Source: Methanosarcina sp.
Lineage (GTDB): Archaea; Halobacteriota; Methanosarcinia; Methanosarcinales; Methanosarcinaceae
Assembly: GCA_003164755.1 (NCBI GenBank)
Contig: PLUB01000023.1
Coordinates: 62,001-126,000, forward strand
Direction: 5' to 3'
Length of the DNA: 64,000 bases
The first letter of the stretch is position 1. Each line of letters begins with the position of its first letter. Of this stretch, positions 14,664 through 52,073 are shown piece after piece. A model generated the notes under the pieces. It searched no databases. It saw only the letters and a list, made by a program, of their open reading frames with translations, and had not been told where the DNA came from. The position numbers were made by a program, and so were the translations under genes.

Positions 14664-15601
14664 TTATTCAACAATTGCACATGCAAAATGCCCATGTTCT
14701 TGCATATGATATTCATTTATATGTCCTAGCAGGTAACATTCTTTGATGTCTTGTGGACTCAAATTCTCATGAAGCCGAAATCCTAAACTTGCGAACTCTT
14801 CAGCTAATGCTGATGGATTGAAGCCTGTATTATCGGTTCGTCTATCTTTAGCAAAAATTCCTTTAATTCTCGTATATATGGCGACATTTTTTCAGGCACA
14901 AATGCATCTGTATCTAAGTAATCAAAAACAATCATGCTGCCCATAGGAACAATTTCAGTGATGGAGCACAGTGTCGCAAATGCCTCTTCTCGGCTCAAGA
15001 AGTTGATGACACCAAGCCAATTAAAGAAGCTTTTAACTTTTGGTTCATAAGATGATAAATTATTTAGTGCTGTTACTAGACTTTCCTTCGTGAAATCTAT
15101 AGAAATAAAATGTAATTTTGCTGGATGTTCCCATTCCAACTCAGCAAGTCGATGAAGCTTAAATTCTTGTGTGGCGGGATGATCAACCTCAAATACTTCC
15201 AACTTTTCCATCATTTCAGGTTGCCTGAATGCAAATGTATCCATTCATGCCCCGAGAATCACATATTGTTTTACCCCTTGCTTAACAGCTTTTTCTAGTG
15301 CGTCTTCAGCATATCGAGCACGGCTGCTGAAAATGCCAGCGTATAGATGGGTTTCTTGCATTAATAACTCTGAGTTAATTGTTCGATTGGATTGAGATGT
15401 AGCATACTTATAATAATTAAACTGTCGAACGCAGGTCACATTTTGTTCAATTAAATGTTGTTCAATTAGTGCTCGTTTTTCCTCAGGTATCAAATCATAG
15501 GCTAAAAAATCATCAAAGATTTTAGGAGTATCATGCATGGAATGATAGGCACGCATGTAAGCTACTGACATTGCAGTAAAGCTTGCTTGATTTTCTTTCA
15601 T
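14664..15601 (-). pseudogene. SAM methyltransferase, dead duplicate (PF04072/TIGR00027 type)
   Basis: This is the tandem copy of the intact gene at 16102-17040, near-identical over its first half. Two lesions are visible against that copy. First, TGA at 15245-15247 replaces the GGA of the GAGMDTFAF motif-I region, ending the first frame at residue 118. Second, a frameshift near 14820-14830 turns EPIITGFNPS into EPIIQASIHQ plus a stop. The remaining C-terminus is readable in the next frame (LAEEFASLGFRLHENLSPQD to HFACAIVE) to 14664. Upstream it keeps the same spacer and IS5 5' fragment as the intact copy, so the duplicated unit is about 1.4 kb. Confidence 0.9.
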
Positions 15602-16101: not shown

Positions 16102-17040
16102 TTATTCGACAACTGCACATGCAAAGTGGGCATACTCATATGCGTGATACCCATCCGTGCGTCCTTTGAAATAACGTTCTTCTATGTCCGCTGGGCTCAA
16201 ATTCTCTTGGAGACTAAATCCTAAACTTGCGAGCTCTTCGGCCAAAGTTGACGGATTGAAGCCAGTTATCATAGGTTCACCTATCTTTCTCAAATACTCC
16301 AATGATTTTTGCATTTGTGGAGACGATTTTTCAGGGATAAATGCATCGATATCGAGATAATCTAAAACAACAATGCTTCCCGCAGGAGCAATCTCTGTGA
16401 TGGAACGCAGTGTTGTGAATACTTCATCTCTGGTCAAGAAGTAAGTGACACCAAGCCAATTAAAGAAGGTTTTAACTTTTGGGTCATATGATGACGAACT
16501 AGTTAGTGCGGTTACCAGACTTTCCTTCGTGAAATCTATAGAAATAAAATGTAATTTTGCTGGATGTTCCCATTCCAACTCAGCAAGTCGATGAAGCTTA
16601 AATTCTTGTGTGGCGGGATGATCAACCTCAAATACTTCCAACTTTTCCATCATTTCAGGTTCCCTGAATGCAAATGTATCCATTCCTGCCCCGAGGATCA
16701 CATATTGTTTTACCCCTTGCTTAACAGCTTTTTCTAGTGCGTCTTCAGCATATCGAGCACGGCTGCTGAAAATGCCAGCGTATCGATGGGTTTCTTGCAT
16801 TAATGACTCTGAGTTAATTGTTTGATCTGAGTGCGATACAGAATAATCAGAATCATTCAATTGTTGACCGCAGGTTATATTTTGTTCAATTAAATGTTGT
16901 TCAATTAGTGCTCTTTTTTCCACGGGTATCAAATCATAGGCTAAAAAGTCATCAAAAATTTTAGGAGTATCATGCATGGAATGATAGGCACGCATGTACG
17001 CTACCGACATTGCAGTAAAGCTTGCTTGATTCTCTTTCAT
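16102..17040 (-). CDS. SAM-dependent methyltransferase (PF04072/TIGR00027 family)
   Basis: The protein is 312 residues, typical for this family (leucine carboxyl methyltransferase-like class I methyltransferases often linked to polyketide or small-molecule O-methylation). An N-terminal helix bundle with SVAYMRAYHS and DDFLAYDLIP precedes the Rossmann part: YVILGAGMDTFAFREPEM (motif I, about residue 110-130), FEVDHPATQEFK (about 137, acidic loop), ISIDFTKES (about 165), FFNWLGVTYFL (about 192), and a hydrophobic C-terminus ending HFACAVVE. The ATG at 17040 has a GGGGAT-type signal upstream. Substrate unknown. It lies downstream of an IS5 5' fragment that may supply its promoter. Family members are commoner in bacteria, so transfer is possible. 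Confidence 0.85.
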   Translation of the reverse strand: MKENQASFTAMSVAYMRAYHSMHDTPKIFDDFLAYDLIPVEKRALIEQHLIEQNITCGQQLNDSDYSVSHSDQTINSESLMQETHRYAGIFSSRARYAEDALEKAVKQGVKQYVILGAGMDTFAFREPEMMEKLEVFEVDHPATQEFKLHRLAELEWEHPAKLHFISIDFTKESLVTALTSSSSYDPKVKTFFNWLGVTYFLTRDEVFTTLRSITEIAPAGSIVVLDYLDIDAFIPEKSSPQMQKSLEYLRKIGEPMITGFNPSTLAEELASLGFSLQENLSPADIEERYFKGRTDGYHAYEYAHFACAVVE

Positions 17041-45505: not shown

Positions 45506-45671
45506 ATTCTACAACTCCTTAATTATTCACCAGTACAAAATGCTGCTTTAGGTTCTTCTTAATCTTTTCTGGTAAAAGATGTTCTTTGCTCTTATAATCG
45601 ATTTTTTAAAAAAAGGTGTTTTACCAAAGAGTTTTCTCCAGGGTAAAACTTAATTTTGTTCTTAGCTAACT

Positions 45672-46160
45672 TCATTCTTCAGCAAAGGCTGTACGCATCT
45701 TTTCTTCTTCTTCCTTGGATAGGTTGGTAGCAATGATTTCAAACTTTGATTGCTTCATAGCCTCTACTACCCTATCTTCAACGGCATCGCTAGTCATAAG
45801 AAAGAGAGCTGAAGTTCCTTCAGTCACTTTGCTACGGATAGATTTTATGAAATCTTCATCGATCCCCATATGCTTCATTGAACCCACTACCGCACCTAAC
45901 GCAGCCCCAGCGACTAGACCAACCAAAGGAATAAAAAAGAGAATACCGAATAATAACCCCCAAAAAGCGCCACTAAGTGCACCTATGCGAGTTAAATAGA
46001 TCAAATGCTTTGTTTTTGGTTTAGTTTTTCCCCGAGGCCAGGTGACTATAGCCGCATCATGTAGCTTAATCATTTGTTGCTTACTTAAGTTCTCAATCAC
46101 TTCAAGTTCATTTTCTGCACCATCAGAGGTGTCAAACTTAAGAACTGTTAAAGTTGCCAT
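45672..46160 (-). CDS. DUF1269 membrane protein
   Basis: I place the start at 46160 because AAAGGAG lies upstream of that ATG (the frame opens at 46178). The roughly 162 residues: a soluble part MATLTVLKFDTSDGAENELE, a Gly/Ala-rich hydrophobic hairpin (GALSGAFWGLLFGILFFIPL and GLVAGAALGAVVGSM), then IDEDFIKSIRSKV and SALFLMTSDAVEDRVVEAMK, a conserved C-terminal pattern. This matches DUF1269 proteins, small membrane-associated proteins often next to stress or PRC-barrel genes. Function unknown. It likely shares regulation with the downstream PRC-barrel genes on the same strand. Confidence 0.8.
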   Translation of the reverse strand: MATLTVLKFDTSDGAENELEVIENLSKQQMIKLHDAAIVTWPRGKTKPKTKHLIYLTRIGALSGAFWGLLFGILFFIPLVGLVAGAALGAVVGSMKHMGIDEDFIKSIRSKVTEGTSALFLMTSDAVEDRVVEAMKQSKFEIIATNLSKEEEEKMRTAFAEE

Positions 46161-46426
46161 TACTGAAACTCCTTTCATGCATTCATATTTATTTCTCGGT
46201 TTGGTTTATCGTACCAGCTCGCCGACATTATACTCTTGCAAGTATATTTAATTCGAAATACCTCACAAAAGATTTTCACAATCAAAAAATTAAATATTAA
46301 CACTTTATTTTAATATCCCAGAGTCTTCAGAATATAACATCATGTTTCAAGTGCACTCTGAGACCTTTAGCTTCTGTTCAGATAAGCTGACGGTCTCGAT
46401 AGGGTGCTGCAAGGCGCATCTAATGC

Positions 46427-48757
46427 TTAGTCCAAGTTGAAAGCTGCCGCAGCAAGCTTCTCGAGGTCTAAGTACTGTGCTTTTTCGACAGTGACTCCGA
46501 CGCCTTGGATCTTTCCGCCCTTGAACTTTCCAGGTGGTTTATATTCTTGGCTGACAGCATCACCGCTATCATATCCAACGCAGAGACCATCACCACAAAG
46601 CGTAAACATGCCCACCTGTGCACGCATTGGACCCTCTGCAACGACCTTGTCATTGACAAAAAGCTTAGTCGTGCCAAGAGACTCTTTGTTTGGGCCTACT
46701 TTCTTTCTAGTAAACTCCATACCGAGTGTGTATTTACCAGGATTTAGCGTGGGTGAGACGAACTGCTGTTCAGGCTTGATGCCAAGGAAGTTGTAAACGT
46801 AGTACAGCTTCTTGTCCTTAATGAAAAGCGCATGACCGCCGAAGCGCGAACCGTGGGCAAAGATCACGCCCGAGCAGTTTGGATCGGTGATTTCGACGTT
46901 TGCGAGGATCTTGTACGAACGACCACGTGTGTTAACGGCAACACTTTCCGGGATCGCTGCCGTTTCAGGATAGTAGATATACCTCTCTCGCAGCGGTTCA
47001 TCGGTAGGTCGTTCAATTAGGACTATTTACAAAGCGCTGCGGTCGTCGAGCGGCAGTACAAGATTCTTTTCCGCCTCCTCGAACCAGACTTTAATTAGAG
47101 CCTGAAGCTTCTCAGGATACTCTTTTGCTAAGTCCTCCGACTCTGAGCGATCTGCTTGCACATTGTAGAGTTCCCACTGGTCTTTGTCGAAGTTACCTTT
47201 TCCAGTCAGTGGAGTATGAAGTGCAGCAGCCCTCCACCCCTCCTCCCAGATTCCACGGGTACCGAGCATAGCATAATACTGACGCTTCTTTTGTGTCGGA
47301 GCATCGGGCTTCGCATCGAAAGTGTAGCGCATCGAGACATCGGCTAGCGGGTACTGCTCCACTCCTTTATAGACCTTGGGCATCTCCAGCCCGCATATAT
47401 CCAGAATTGTCGGGACGATATCGGTGGAATGGTGATACTGATGCCGGACCTCCCCCCGCGCCTTGATACATTTTGGCCACGAAATTACCAGCGGATCGCA
47501 GGTGCCACCCGAATATTCTGAATAGCGCTTGAACATCTTGAACGGCGTCGAGAAGGCGACGGCCCAGCCGGTAGGATAATGGTTATATGTTTCCGGGCTG
47601 CCTAGCACGTCCAGATACTTCATGTTCTCTGACAAGGAATCAGGGTAGCCGTTGAAGAATTTGTTCTCGTTGACCGATCCGTTGGGGCTGCCTTCTCCGG
47701 AGGCGCCATTGTCTGCTGCGTAGAGGACGACAGTGTTGTCGAGTTGGCCGCTCTCCTCCAGGTAGTCGATTATGCGACCCACCTGAGCGTCCGTATATTC
47801 TGAGAATCCCGCATGGACCTCGGCCATGCGCGAGAATAGTTTCTTCTCGTCAATATTGAGCGAATCCCAGGGACGCACGAAATCTGTAGGGTTCGCTAAC
47901 TCATCCGGCAGCGGGTTAATTGGGGTGAGCGTAGTTTCCTTTGGCAGGATTCCCTTCTCAATCATGCGCTTAAGGACCCACTCCCGATAAGCTTCGTAGC
48001 CGTCATCGAACTTACCCTTATATTTGTCAATGTATTCCTGCGGAGCATGGTGAGGGGCGTGGTTGGCGCCTGGACAGAACCACATGAACCACGGCTTTGA
48101 GGGGTGACTGGCTTTTTGATCTCGTATCATTTTTATGGCCTGGTCAGCTAGGTCCTTTGAGAGGTGGTAGCCATCCTCAGGGAAGTAAGGCTGGTCGATG
48201 AACCGGTTGTCTTCGACGAGGTTTGGATACCATTGGTTTGTCTCGCCACCAATGAAACCATAGAAGCGATCGAACCCCTTCTGGAGAGGCCATTGCTTTC
48301 GACTTGCGCCCGGGGCTACGTCTTGCTCTGCGACGTTGTGATTCTTACCCACCCAGAAGGTGCTCCAGCCGCCATCTTGGAGGATCTGTCCAATCGTAGC
48401 GCACTCATCGGGGATGCGACCGTGCGCACCGGGAAATCCATTTGCCCCCTCGGTGACGCAGGCCATGCCGTTGACGTGATGGTTTCGCCCGGTCAGCATA
48501 GTGGAGCGGGTTGGTGAGCAAAGCGCAGTCGTATGCCATTGTGAATATGCCAAACCTCGGTCTGCCAACATCTGCAGTGTCGGCATGTTGATCCTCCCGC
48601 AGAATGGTGACCAGGCAGCAAGACCGGTATCATCGTACAGAATGAACAGAATGTTAGGCGCTCCCTCAGGAGCTTTGGTTGGTGTATACGGTTCCCAGTC
48701 CGCTACAGAATCGCGAACATCAAGTTTGATGACGCCCTTAAAAGGTTTCTTAGTCAT
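46427..48757 (-). pseudogene. Arylsulfatase interrupted by one in-frame TAA
   Basis: A single frame of 777 codons spans both parts, and the only interruption is TAA at 47027-47029. The N-terminal 576 residues contain the formylglycine-type site LCSPTRSTMLTGRN (about residue 80), NILFILYDDTG, YAADNGASGEGSPNGS and WAVAFSTPFKMFKRYS; the 199 after the stop continue without a gap (IVLIERPTDEPLRERYIYYP to the C-terminus). Family members have Glu at the stop position (GAA to TAA, one base). It would hydrolyse sulfate esters. GC is clearly higher than the rest of the window, and GAGGG precedes the ATG, suggesting acquisition from bacteria. No maturase gene is nearby. The first 576 residues might still fold, but without the C-terminal domain. 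Confidence 0.88.
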
Positions 48758-48781
48758 TCTTTGCCCTCGTTTGTTAGTACA

Positions 48782-48809
48782 ACGGGCTATCTCATGGAAG
48801 ATAGCCCGT
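48782..48809. terminator. Strong GC-rich hairpin upstream of the arylsulfatase
   Basis: ACGGGCTATCT-catgga-AGATAGCCCGT is a perfect 11-bp inverted repeat followed by a T-rich run on the plus strand. It resembles a bacterial intrinsic terminator and lies 25 bp upstream of the sulfatase start, so it may have come in with that gene or act in its leader. Confidence 0.5.
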
Positions 48810-49606
48810 ACGGTTGTTTTTCGCTTATATTGAGAATTTATATACTATGTCCAAAGGTTTTAAATGAAACTTACTAGATTCCACAAGTGCGGAAAGTAGT
48901 GTAGGCAAAAAAGATAAAAATACACGGGGCTGGAGTAACCCCCAATTTTAATTATTAAGCTCATTACAAGCTCTATACAATATCATTTTTAGTATTTTCT
49001 TCGTTTTCTGATACATACTGGCGGGGATTATATACATCAAATCAACAATGAGCCATTCTCAGGCGTTTTGAGACGCTTTTATGGGTGGGGCGATGGAAAT
49101 TCATAGGACATTAGATAAAAGTCTCCCTAGTAACCTCAGAATAAGTCATTGTTTAGATAAAATTAAACCCCCCTGATTTTACTGCAATATAGCGATAGGT
49201 AGTCATGAGATATTTTTCATATATTTTTATCACTTTAACAGGATATACATCAAGTTCGGAGAGAACGGAAGAATGGAAGATTTACTTAGATTTTTAGTAA
49301 AATCTATATATATTCCTAGCTATTTAGTTCAAGTTTGTATTATTTAGGGTATATACGATATATTTATATAATTAATTAAATCTAGTTATAATTATAGGGT
49401 TCTCTTCAAACCTTCAATCAAATCTACTCATGGGCTGCAGGCAACGACTTTCACCAGTTAACAAGATCAACTTTTTTTGGCATTTCAGGTTAGCCTGTTT
49501 ACCCCAACTCATTAAATAAATTGGAAGAAAATAGATTGTGGGAGCTCTGATCTGATGTTTTATCTATGATATATACATATCCACATTAATTTTATTGTTG
49601 GGATCG
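48810..49606. other. Spacer
   Basis: No gene. AT-rich. It marks the boundary between the GC-rich arylsulfatase and the mobile-element remnant. Confidence 0.4.
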
Positions 49607-49960
49607 TTATTTGGCTATTAAGGCGTGTGTTTTTAAAGTGGGATACCCTTCATAGCAATTGTTGCATAACACAGTCACAGTGGGACTCTTACCTCTTTGT
49701 CTTACAGTTTTTATCATCCCACATTTTTCTAACTCATCCAAAGCTTTCGGAAAAGCCCAATCAGGGATAGGTAGAAATGAGTTTATACCCTTCAGGGTGA
49801 CTACTAAATCTTTAGATTTTTTCACCCCTTTTAAGTGCCAAATGTACATAGCAACTCTATATGTATGCCCCACTGAATTGGAAGGTAACTTTACAATCCA
49901 TTCTGAAGGCATTTGTGATATGAAGGATCCTTTTATTTTCTCTTTAGGATTCACCAGCAT
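49607..49960 (-). CDS. Hypothetical winged-helix-like protein of mobile remnant
   Basis: I use the ATG at 49960, which has GGGAGT upstream; the frame opens at 49990. The protein is about 117 residues. The region FPKALDELEKCGMIKTVRQR with GKSPTVTVL resembles the recognition helix and wing of a winged-helix fold, and CNNCYEG follows. Such proteins are common in plasmid and virus-derived segments. It lies 210 bp beyond the end of the disrupted polymerase, on the same strand, so it probably came with that element. Confidence 0.6.
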   Translation of the reverse strand: MLVNPKEKIKGSFISQMPSEWIVKLPSNSVGHTYRVAMYIWHLKGVKKSKDLVVTLKGINSFLPIPDWAFPKALDELEKCGMIKTVRQRGKSPTVTVLCNNCYEGYPTLKTHALIAK

Positions 49961-50170
49961 TATCTTACTCCCATTTAATATTATTATCAAATATTAAGAA
50001 GAAATAAAGAAGATATATTAAAGAAATATAAGTAGCAAAACCGAGATCATGAGACTTTAGAATTTTGCTGTACAGCTAATTAATATGGCTCTACAGCGAA
50101 ATTGGGATTAGGTTCTACAGCTAAATTGAAAAGTCTGTCCAGGATCTTTCAGCCTCATTTATGGTGGGTT

Positions 50171-51939
50171 TTACTCTTGTTTTATCTCCATGAGTATCCG
50201 CGTAATAAGCTCCCAAGTTTCGGCACCTTTCTCATCTATATATCTGTCAGGATAGCGGACAATATCGACATCTATTTTCAATCTACTACCTGCACCCAAA
50301 ACGATCTCGGATGCATCACACATCAACTTTCTCGCTATCTTTATCTCTTTGTCTGACGCCTTCTAGTCGCACTCAATCATCAACGATCGTGAACTGGAGC
50401 AACAATTTTAATTTTGTTCTCCGCGAGAAGGATACATGCGACTCTAAGAATTTCAGCTCCAGTGGCTTGAATTGGGAAATTTCGGACGGTCAACATTTCC
50501 TTATTGCTGGAGCCTGAAACAATCATTCTCATTTATAGCAGGTTTCAATCCTTTTCATCAAACAGGCTTGAGTCCAGGTCATATCTACCCAACGCCAATA
50601 ATTTTTGAAGACTCTTTTATGATGACTAAGCAATTCTTTTGCATAAGGTGTCGGTTTACCAATTTTAAACCCAAGTGATTCTGCACCCAGGCCATATTGA
50701 ACACCAAGTACACAGGATTTAAAGAGCTGTCTCATATTACCATGCGTTTCTTTTGTAGCGTCTACTGGAACTGCACCTGCTAATTTTGCAAAAGCCAGAT
50801 ATGGATCCCCGCTTTTATATGCCTCAATCATATTTGGGTCATTGGAGAGAACTGCTGCAATAAAGAATTCTTGTTGTGCATAATAAATATACGCAAGTAC
50901 TTTCCCCTCGGTCGGTTTTATCAAACTTCTCAGAGAAGCAGGAAGCTCAAACATAAACCTAACTCTTAATTCTCCTCTATTCTTTTTCTCTTCGTCATCC
51001 TTAGGGGCATTTCTACCGCTCTTAGTCCAGAAAGGAGAGATTAAGGTTCGACTTCTGTCATCTGAACCAGCTATAATAGACTTGAAATTTAACCCGCCGA
51101 TGAGAGCTTTTAATTCTTTCAAAGGCCCGATTTCAGGATGGATTTCTGCCATTTCCTTGAAAGTTTCCTTATCGATTTTTGGCAGACCTGCGTCAGTCCT
51201 CAGCCACGCCCAATTGTTGACTTGAATAAATTTCTCAAAATTATTTATCTTAAAACTGGTACCTTCGTAAATTCCAAACTTTTCAATATTTTTGATTAAT
51301 TTTATTTTTGTTTTCTCCCAGTTTTCTTGTAATTCACGAAGTAGGTTGGTATCAATTGGTATACCATTATATTCGATTTCTGCCACAGATTTCATATACT
51401 CCCCCTCGATAGAGAGAAGTGGGTATGTCGAAATCAGGGACCATAATCATCCGTTTGAATAACTCTGTTGTTTCCAGCACGTCAGATTCACAATAACGCA
51501 TAATATATTCTTTATCTTCCTCAAAGTAAGGAGCACCAGCCAAAATACGATCTCTTGCAGCATCTTTTTCCACTTTGCTAATAGTTTCTATTCCAAAAGC
51601 TTTACATGCATCCAGTAGGTTTGCACCTCTTCTGTCATAAGAATGATTAGAAAAGCATCTGTATTCTACGAACTTATCGATTACATTGGACGGTAAGGGC
51701 CAGTTTAAGCCTAGGTGGCATCCCCACTCTGCTGAACTCATATGAGCGACAAATAAGTCATTTTCACCTATTGAGTAGGGTGGCTGACTATTTTTTTCTT
51801 CAAAAAGCCACAGTCTTTTAGTTTCTCCAGAGTTTATCTCATGACAAACAACACAAACAGGTATTGGATGTTCACTAGGTTTTGCTATAAATTCGAAGTC
51901 GATTACATAAATATGGTCAAAAAATGAAAAGGGAAGCAT
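50171..51939 (-). pseudogene. Family A DNA polymerase of a plasmid/virus, frameshifted
   Basis: Piece 1 (51939-51367) is a 3'-5' exonuclease-like domain with YVIDFEFIA (DxE) and YCESDVLETTEL. Piece 2 (51395-50529) begins MKSVAEIEYNGIPIDTNLLR and has the polymerase fingers AYIYYAQQEFFIAAVLSNDP and GNMRQLFKSCVLGVQYGLGA. Piece 3 (about 50510-50171), in other frames, has NFPIQATGAEILRVAC, KIVAPVHD and VRYPDRYIDEKGAETWEL, the polymerase C-terminus. One extra G in GGGGG at about 51397-51402 separates pieces 1 and 2, and at least two further lesions separate piece 3. Order and motifs match a single-protein A-family polymerase of integrated elements, now dead. Confidence 0.85.
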
Positions 51940-52073
51940 CAAAGCTCACCCCTCAGTCTCTTTAATACAGGGTGGTTAATATCGTCTATGAACCTGTCCT
52001 TGAAAGCGACCTCAATAGCTTTTATTATATTCTCCGGTTCCTCAGGCCATTCTGGGGCCGGGAGTTCACTCAT
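51939..52073 (-). CDS. Small 44-aa ORF, possibly read through from upstream gene
   Basis: ATG at 52073 gives MSELPAPEWPEEPENIIKAI, then EVAFKDRFIDDINHPVLKRL RGEL, with TGA overlapping the polymerase ATG as TGATG. It lacks its own SD. It is in the same frame as the ORF at 52089-52475, separated only by TAG (52086-52088) and four sense codons. It may be a separate gene coupled to the polymerase, or the C-terminus of a longer protein made by TAG readthrough. Confidence 0.45.
   Translation of the reverse strand: MSELPAPEWPEEPENIIKAIEVAFKDRFIDDINHPVLKRLRGEL

Follow-up and report, generated by a model that had tools for sequence, protein, structure and literature searches.

The 64,000-nucleotide stretch of Methanosarcina sp. 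DNA analysed here (the window, part of the 197-kb contig C58) carries an arylsulfatase gene of bacterial origin that is interrupted by a single in-frame stop codon. Native DNA borders it at either end, and the sulfatase copies native to the host genome have decayed. We favour, with a probability of about 0.55, the reading that this sulfatase was imported from bacteria and has met its first disabling lesion, and is thus a failed-transfer pseudogene. A single bacterial AtsA-type formylglycine arylsulfatase gene with short flanks (at most 2.5 kb) would have entered a Methanosarcina-like archaeal genome at a site next to the remaining end of a disrupted native gene, as the homology of both flanks shows. 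The imported frame would have stayed open and conserved for some time, until a very recent nonsense change at codon 577 removed the last quarter of the gene, with the C-terminal beta-sandwich domain. The stop would then be present in living cells and would abolish or impair function.

A bacterial gene between native flanks

The arylsulfatase frame runs on the minus strand from 48757 to 46427 and comprises 777 codons with one internal stop in addition to the terminal one, as the sequence-only reading, silent on the strand, had described. A tblastn search returned bacterial relatives across many phyla, with identities of up to 85% over the part before the stop (best 80 of more) and up to 82% over the full length. 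Sulfatases native to the host genus, of which a full uninterrupted frame is found in 10 of 30 genomes, do not exceed 49% identity with the catalytic part of the window protein, and the best archaeal matches reach 53% among 237 genomes of the class and 58% (catalytic part) in a sample of 392 genomes from the archaeal phylum to which the host belongs.

In a tree of 65 rows, which took in 43 of the 79 complete bacterial sequences, the window gene lies within the bacterial clade, the branch between bacteria and archaea having a support of 100; its nearest bacterial neighbour is not pinned down by this tree. Three rows are long (L141, L148 and L149, with a program warning on two of them), which, judging from identity, does not affect the placing of the window row among bacteria 72–82% identical to it. 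The gene has a GC content of 0.522 and a GC3 of 0.588, compared with a mean GC3 of 0.370 (sd 0.050) in 19 neighbouring ORFs. The sequence-only reading had pointed to GC far above the surroundings and had proposed phylogeny and composition as checks; both were run, and both agree with its suspicion of a foreign gene. Import from bacteria is thus strongly supported by the tree, identity, composition and native flanks taken together. The adjective "recent" in its phrase "recent import" stands for the break, since the part past the stop shows no visible decay, and for the import itself only insofar as a search of 29 further genomes of the genus gave no close copy. As for a vehicle, a scan of viral contigs gave 0 relatives; relatives do occur on plasmids, none above 76% identity among the matches listed.

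The import spans at most about 2.5 kb, with native DNA found again within about 115 bp downstream and 60 bp upstream of the gene. The downstream flank (45613–46312) is 80% identical to the native genome G016, which is the nearest genome by DNA matches. On the upstream side, 48817–49247 is 74% identical to the host's own contig C77, 49004–50102 is 79% identical to its contig C90, and 49546–51245 is 81% identical to G016. The C77 match begins inside the last codons of a C77 gene, so what adjoins the import on this side is the decayed end of a gene. A short piece of donor DNA may trail the sulfatase gene, to judge from a weak match (E 0.006) between 46345–46396 and sequence flanking the bacterial relative L007. 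An inverted repeat at 46360–46400, just past the sulfatase and on the same strand, is perhaps the donor's terminator; its fold z is only –1.45. No flanking repeat pair was recognised at the junctions in a repeat search, and no empty insertion site was found, the two flanks sitting on separate contigs in G016. Farther upstream, a family A DNA polymerase (PF00476) with a broken frame occupies 50529–51942; the region has relatives in C90, C115 and G016 and is possibly an old mobile element.

Upstream of the gene, the 11-bp hairpin that had been described as terminator-like is real, lying 24 bp from the ATG and being unusually stable for its composition (fold z = –4.1). It is no terminator for transcription entering the sulfatase, because its T-rich tail lies on the strand opposite to the gene.

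Table 1. Coordinates of the sulfatase gene, the imported segment and adjoining features (window positions).
Feature	Position	Strand	Remarks
Native DUF1269 gene directly downstream	45672..46178	-	DUF1269 also beside native sulfatases of the genus
Imported segment, largest extent	46313..48816	.	Flanked by native homology up to 46312 and from 48817 on
Terminal stop of the original sulfatase reading frame	46427..46429	-	
199 codons past the stop, still open; laminin-G/CBM40-like beta-sandwich domain	46430..47026	-	
In-frame TAA, codon 577	47027..47029	-	Inter-domain linker position
Open part, 576 codons, with the whole catalytic unit of a type I (formylglycine) sulfatase; CSPTR at residues 80-84	47030..48757	-	Pfam Sulfatase and P. 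aeruginosa alignment
11-bp inverted repeat, stem and loop	48782..48809	+ (T-rich tail on + strand)	Single copy; no further copy elsewhere in the genome
Degraded 3' tail of a native gene, internal stop	48817..48904	+	Truncated at the import border; contig C77 of the host has a relative with an open frame

The stop codon and the domain it removes

Alignment of 80 bacterial relatives gives Glu in 75, Asp in 3, Ile in 1 and Val in 1 at the stop column, in agreement with the Glu expected there by the sequence-only reading; in 21 archaeal relatives the residue is Arg (15), Met (3), Leu (2) or Glu (1). All 79 complete bacterial relatives continue past the codon-577 site (the remaining one, L037, is cut by a contig end and was omitted from lengths, tree and ratios), and the window frame is thus disabled relative to its intact homologues. 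The catalytic CSPTR motif is intact, as had been claimed, and its C, S, P and R columns are invariant in the alignment (A1). There is no homopolymer or frame shift at the TAA site. Pyrrolysine in methanogens is decoded at TAG, so pyrrolysine or other recoding is rejected for a stop that is TAA. A split gene with a separately expressed C-terminal domain is unlikely, because the next in-frame start, a GTG at codon 631 (46867), would drop the first 53 residues of the post-stop part.

The protein matches Pfam Sulfatase (PF00884) with 192 bits over residues 34–456, and residues 4–519 of the 536-residue P. aeruginosa arylsulfatase align with its residues 33–560. The intact relative L007, modelled with a mean pLDDT of 85, superimposes on the P. 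aeruginosa structure with a TM-score of 0.86 by target length (PDB 1hdh), and the stop position corresponds to a low-confidence linker in the L007 model (residues ~571–590, pLDDT 57–66). The 199 post-stop residues, modelled alone, are predicted as a beta-sandwich (pLDDT 89), with CBM40 and laminin-G-like domains as the best fold matches (best Z 14.3, rmsd 3.4 over 159 residues), a likeness that, at the level of the model, reflects a common fold and says nothing on function. Alignments of 37 and 49 rows were used for the structure models. In these models the linker that the stop interrupts joins a complete Pseudomonas-type catalytic unit to the sandwich domain; the product would keep the whole catalytic unit and lack only the accessory domain. 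Since the stop spares this unit, the product might still work, a point that the sequence-only reading overlooked. Along the gene there are 317 single-step routes to a stop codon, of which 9 lie in the linker and 80 at or beyond codon 561, so placement by chance is possible.

No stronger decay past the stop was seen in tip lengths or conserved columns. On the fixed tree the window tip measures 0.116 for the pre-stop and 0.223 for the post-stop part, a C/N ratio of 1.93 (rank 62 of 81 tips; summed over all tips, 12.88/9.18 = 1.40). Among columns on which at least 97% of the relatives agree, the window protein differs at 5 of 242 in the pre-stop part and at 0 of 67 in the post-stop part; for strictly invariant columns the corresponding figures are 3 of 182 and 0 of 38, the former placing it at rank 79 of 80, and at the 90% level they are 8 of 300 and 4 of 92. 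A rough count (67 columns, 2.25 nonsynonymous sites per codon) puts neutral drift after the break below ~0.02 per site. With no loss of constraint seen after the stop, the pattern is what one would expect of a lesion that is very young, of a strain variant or of an error in the assembly. The pre-stop departures from invariant columns are a hint that constraint has loosened in the new host. GC3 drops from 0.61 to 0.52 across the stop, a fall equalled by 1 of 79 relatives, which we record as a weak hint and an unexplained sign.

The host genome and its sulfatase pathway

The host genome assembly (3.47 Mb, 124 contigs, 92.5% complete) contains one sulfatase with a whole catalytic domain, the imported gene. 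A native sulfatase on contig C92 is broken into three pieces in two frames with stops; C82 holds a sulfatase remnant and C110 a short Pfam match. A formylglycine-generating enzyme (FGE, PF03781) was not found in the host genome, and maturation capacity is present through an anaerobic maturase (anSME) on C77, which scores 497 bits against the TIGR03942 cut-off of 349 and has no stop; its C-terminal end is lost, the alignment covering 7–394 of 446. Across the genus, 19 of 30 genomes have a maturase over the cut-off, among them every one of the 10 that carry a full-length native sulfatase.

The sulfatase of G016 is a remnant, and the anaerobic maturase of that genome (L163, G016:C114:3757–4872) carries one in-frame TAA. 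Native sulfatase remnants with internal deletions and both ends left are found in G027, G012 and G016 (L096, L098 and L132, respectively). A cluster in G001 (L136, 8087–13845) combines a DUF1269-type gene, a sulfatase, a membrane protein and an anSME maturase, and DUF1269 neighbours recur next to sulfatases in other genomes.

Coverage by ORFs of at least 100 aa is 0.495 in the window and averages 0.53 (range 0.44–0.65) in five other stretches of the host genome, compared with 0.71 (range 0.51–0.87) in 15 stretches of five congeners. Judged by this coverage, decay of the host genome looks general. Many genes in the window are broken and open-frame coverage is low for an archaeon (1–64000, L166–L170). 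Seven housekeeping proteins in the window (MTAP, PheS, TrpS, S13, S4, S11 and RpoD; 2,027 codons) are complete and score above a family cut-off. Two copies of one reading frame with similar protein starts lie at 14804–15601 and 16102–17040, one split in two frames and the other whole. Loss of the imported gene would fit a pathway going out of use, the host genome apparently decaying in general and its own sulfatases being already broken.

Competing explanations and comparison with known systems

A single stop in a conserved frame could also come from a consensus error or a minority strain allele, and this counts against the favoured reading, as does the lack of visible decay beyond the stop. 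We consider it unlikely that the imported sulfatase is intact and its stop an artefact of the 124-contig draft, introduced by sequencing, by the consensus or by a mixture of strains. A lone substitution-type lesion with no relaxed constraint behind it is what such an error would leave, and an intact gene would make biological sense as the sole host sulfatase with a whole catalytic domain, a maturase being retained elsewhere in the genome. However, the site offers neither a homopolymer nor a frame shift, other genomes carry lesions in the same pathway, and the complete housekeeping proteins disfavour frequent indel errors, though not rare substitutions. A mis-assembled piece of contaminant bacterial DNA, 2.5 kb long and GC-rich, would account for the sharp composition edges in a draft assembly, but we judge it very improbable: native DNA lies on both sides within a 197-kb contig, no relative exceeds 85% identity in the pre-stop part among the best 80 of the genome scan, and assemblers seldom place one foreign gene inside a contig. 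Least credible is an ancestral methanogen sulfatase that merely looks bacterial. The genus does have its own AtsA-type sulfatases, with a full frame in a third of the genomes searched and beside the same DUF1269 family, but these stand across a fully supported branch at no more than 49% identity, and the tree refutes this origin among the genomes searched.

The complete catalytic unit and the retained maturase, as far as sequence can tell, leave room for function, which also weighs against the favoured reading. The 576-residue product could be a working sulfatase, trimmed of its accessory domain into a Pseudomonas-type single-unit enzyme and possibly the last client of the anaerobic maturase. 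The P. aeruginosa enzyme ends about at the stop, the model of the intact relative matches its structure, the cut lies in a low-confidence linker that just 9 of the 317 stop routes would reach, and an anSME free of stops and over its cut-off is found in a host where no FGE was. Against this, the C-terminal domain is present in all complete bacterial relatives (0 of 79 lack it), the changes at invariant pre-stop columns hint at relaxed constraint and not at refinement, the host anSME lacks its C-terminal end and that of G016 contains a stop. We hold a working product to be about as unlikely as an error; still more doubtful is the version in which the stop is real and harmless or even useful, a two-domain bacterial sulfatase having been pared to a single-domain enzyme that became the sole anSME substrate after the native sulfatases died.

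On the favoured reading, that of a failed-transfer pseudogene, the window holds a clear transfer of a single gene from bacteria to an archaeon, caught beside its first disabling change while the host's own like pathway is decaying. It also carries a practical lesson: a stop at a domain boundary does not necessarily mean a dead enzyme.

Prokaryotic pseudogenes are reported to be enriched in failed transfers (PMC522871), and the event would be a failed gene transfer of this known, ordinary kind. It resembles the pseudogenes described there in foreign composition, foreign phylogeny and a disabled frame, and differs in having a single lesion that sits at a domain boundary, which leaves the loss of function uncertain. 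Transfer of this sulfatase class from bacteria to methanogens and haloarchaea has already been proposed (PMC5066984); relative to that proposal, the present gene is a separate, later and additional transfer. Among the papers listed for Methanosarcina or methanogen sulfatases, none is, judged by title, about this gene. With P. aeruginosa AtsA (PDB 1hdh; family S1_4 in PMC5066984) the protein shares the catalytic fold and the CxPxR signature, and the truncated product ends about where AtsA does, whereas the imported family normally continues for 199 residues into the laminin-G/CBM40-like sandwich; identity between AtsA and L007 is 28% over the fold alignment. Native Methanosarcina-type arylsulfatases (for example L089 in G001, ~784 aa) have the same domain order, but they form a clade separate from the window protein, to which they are at most 49% identical in the catalytic part, and in this host they are broken.
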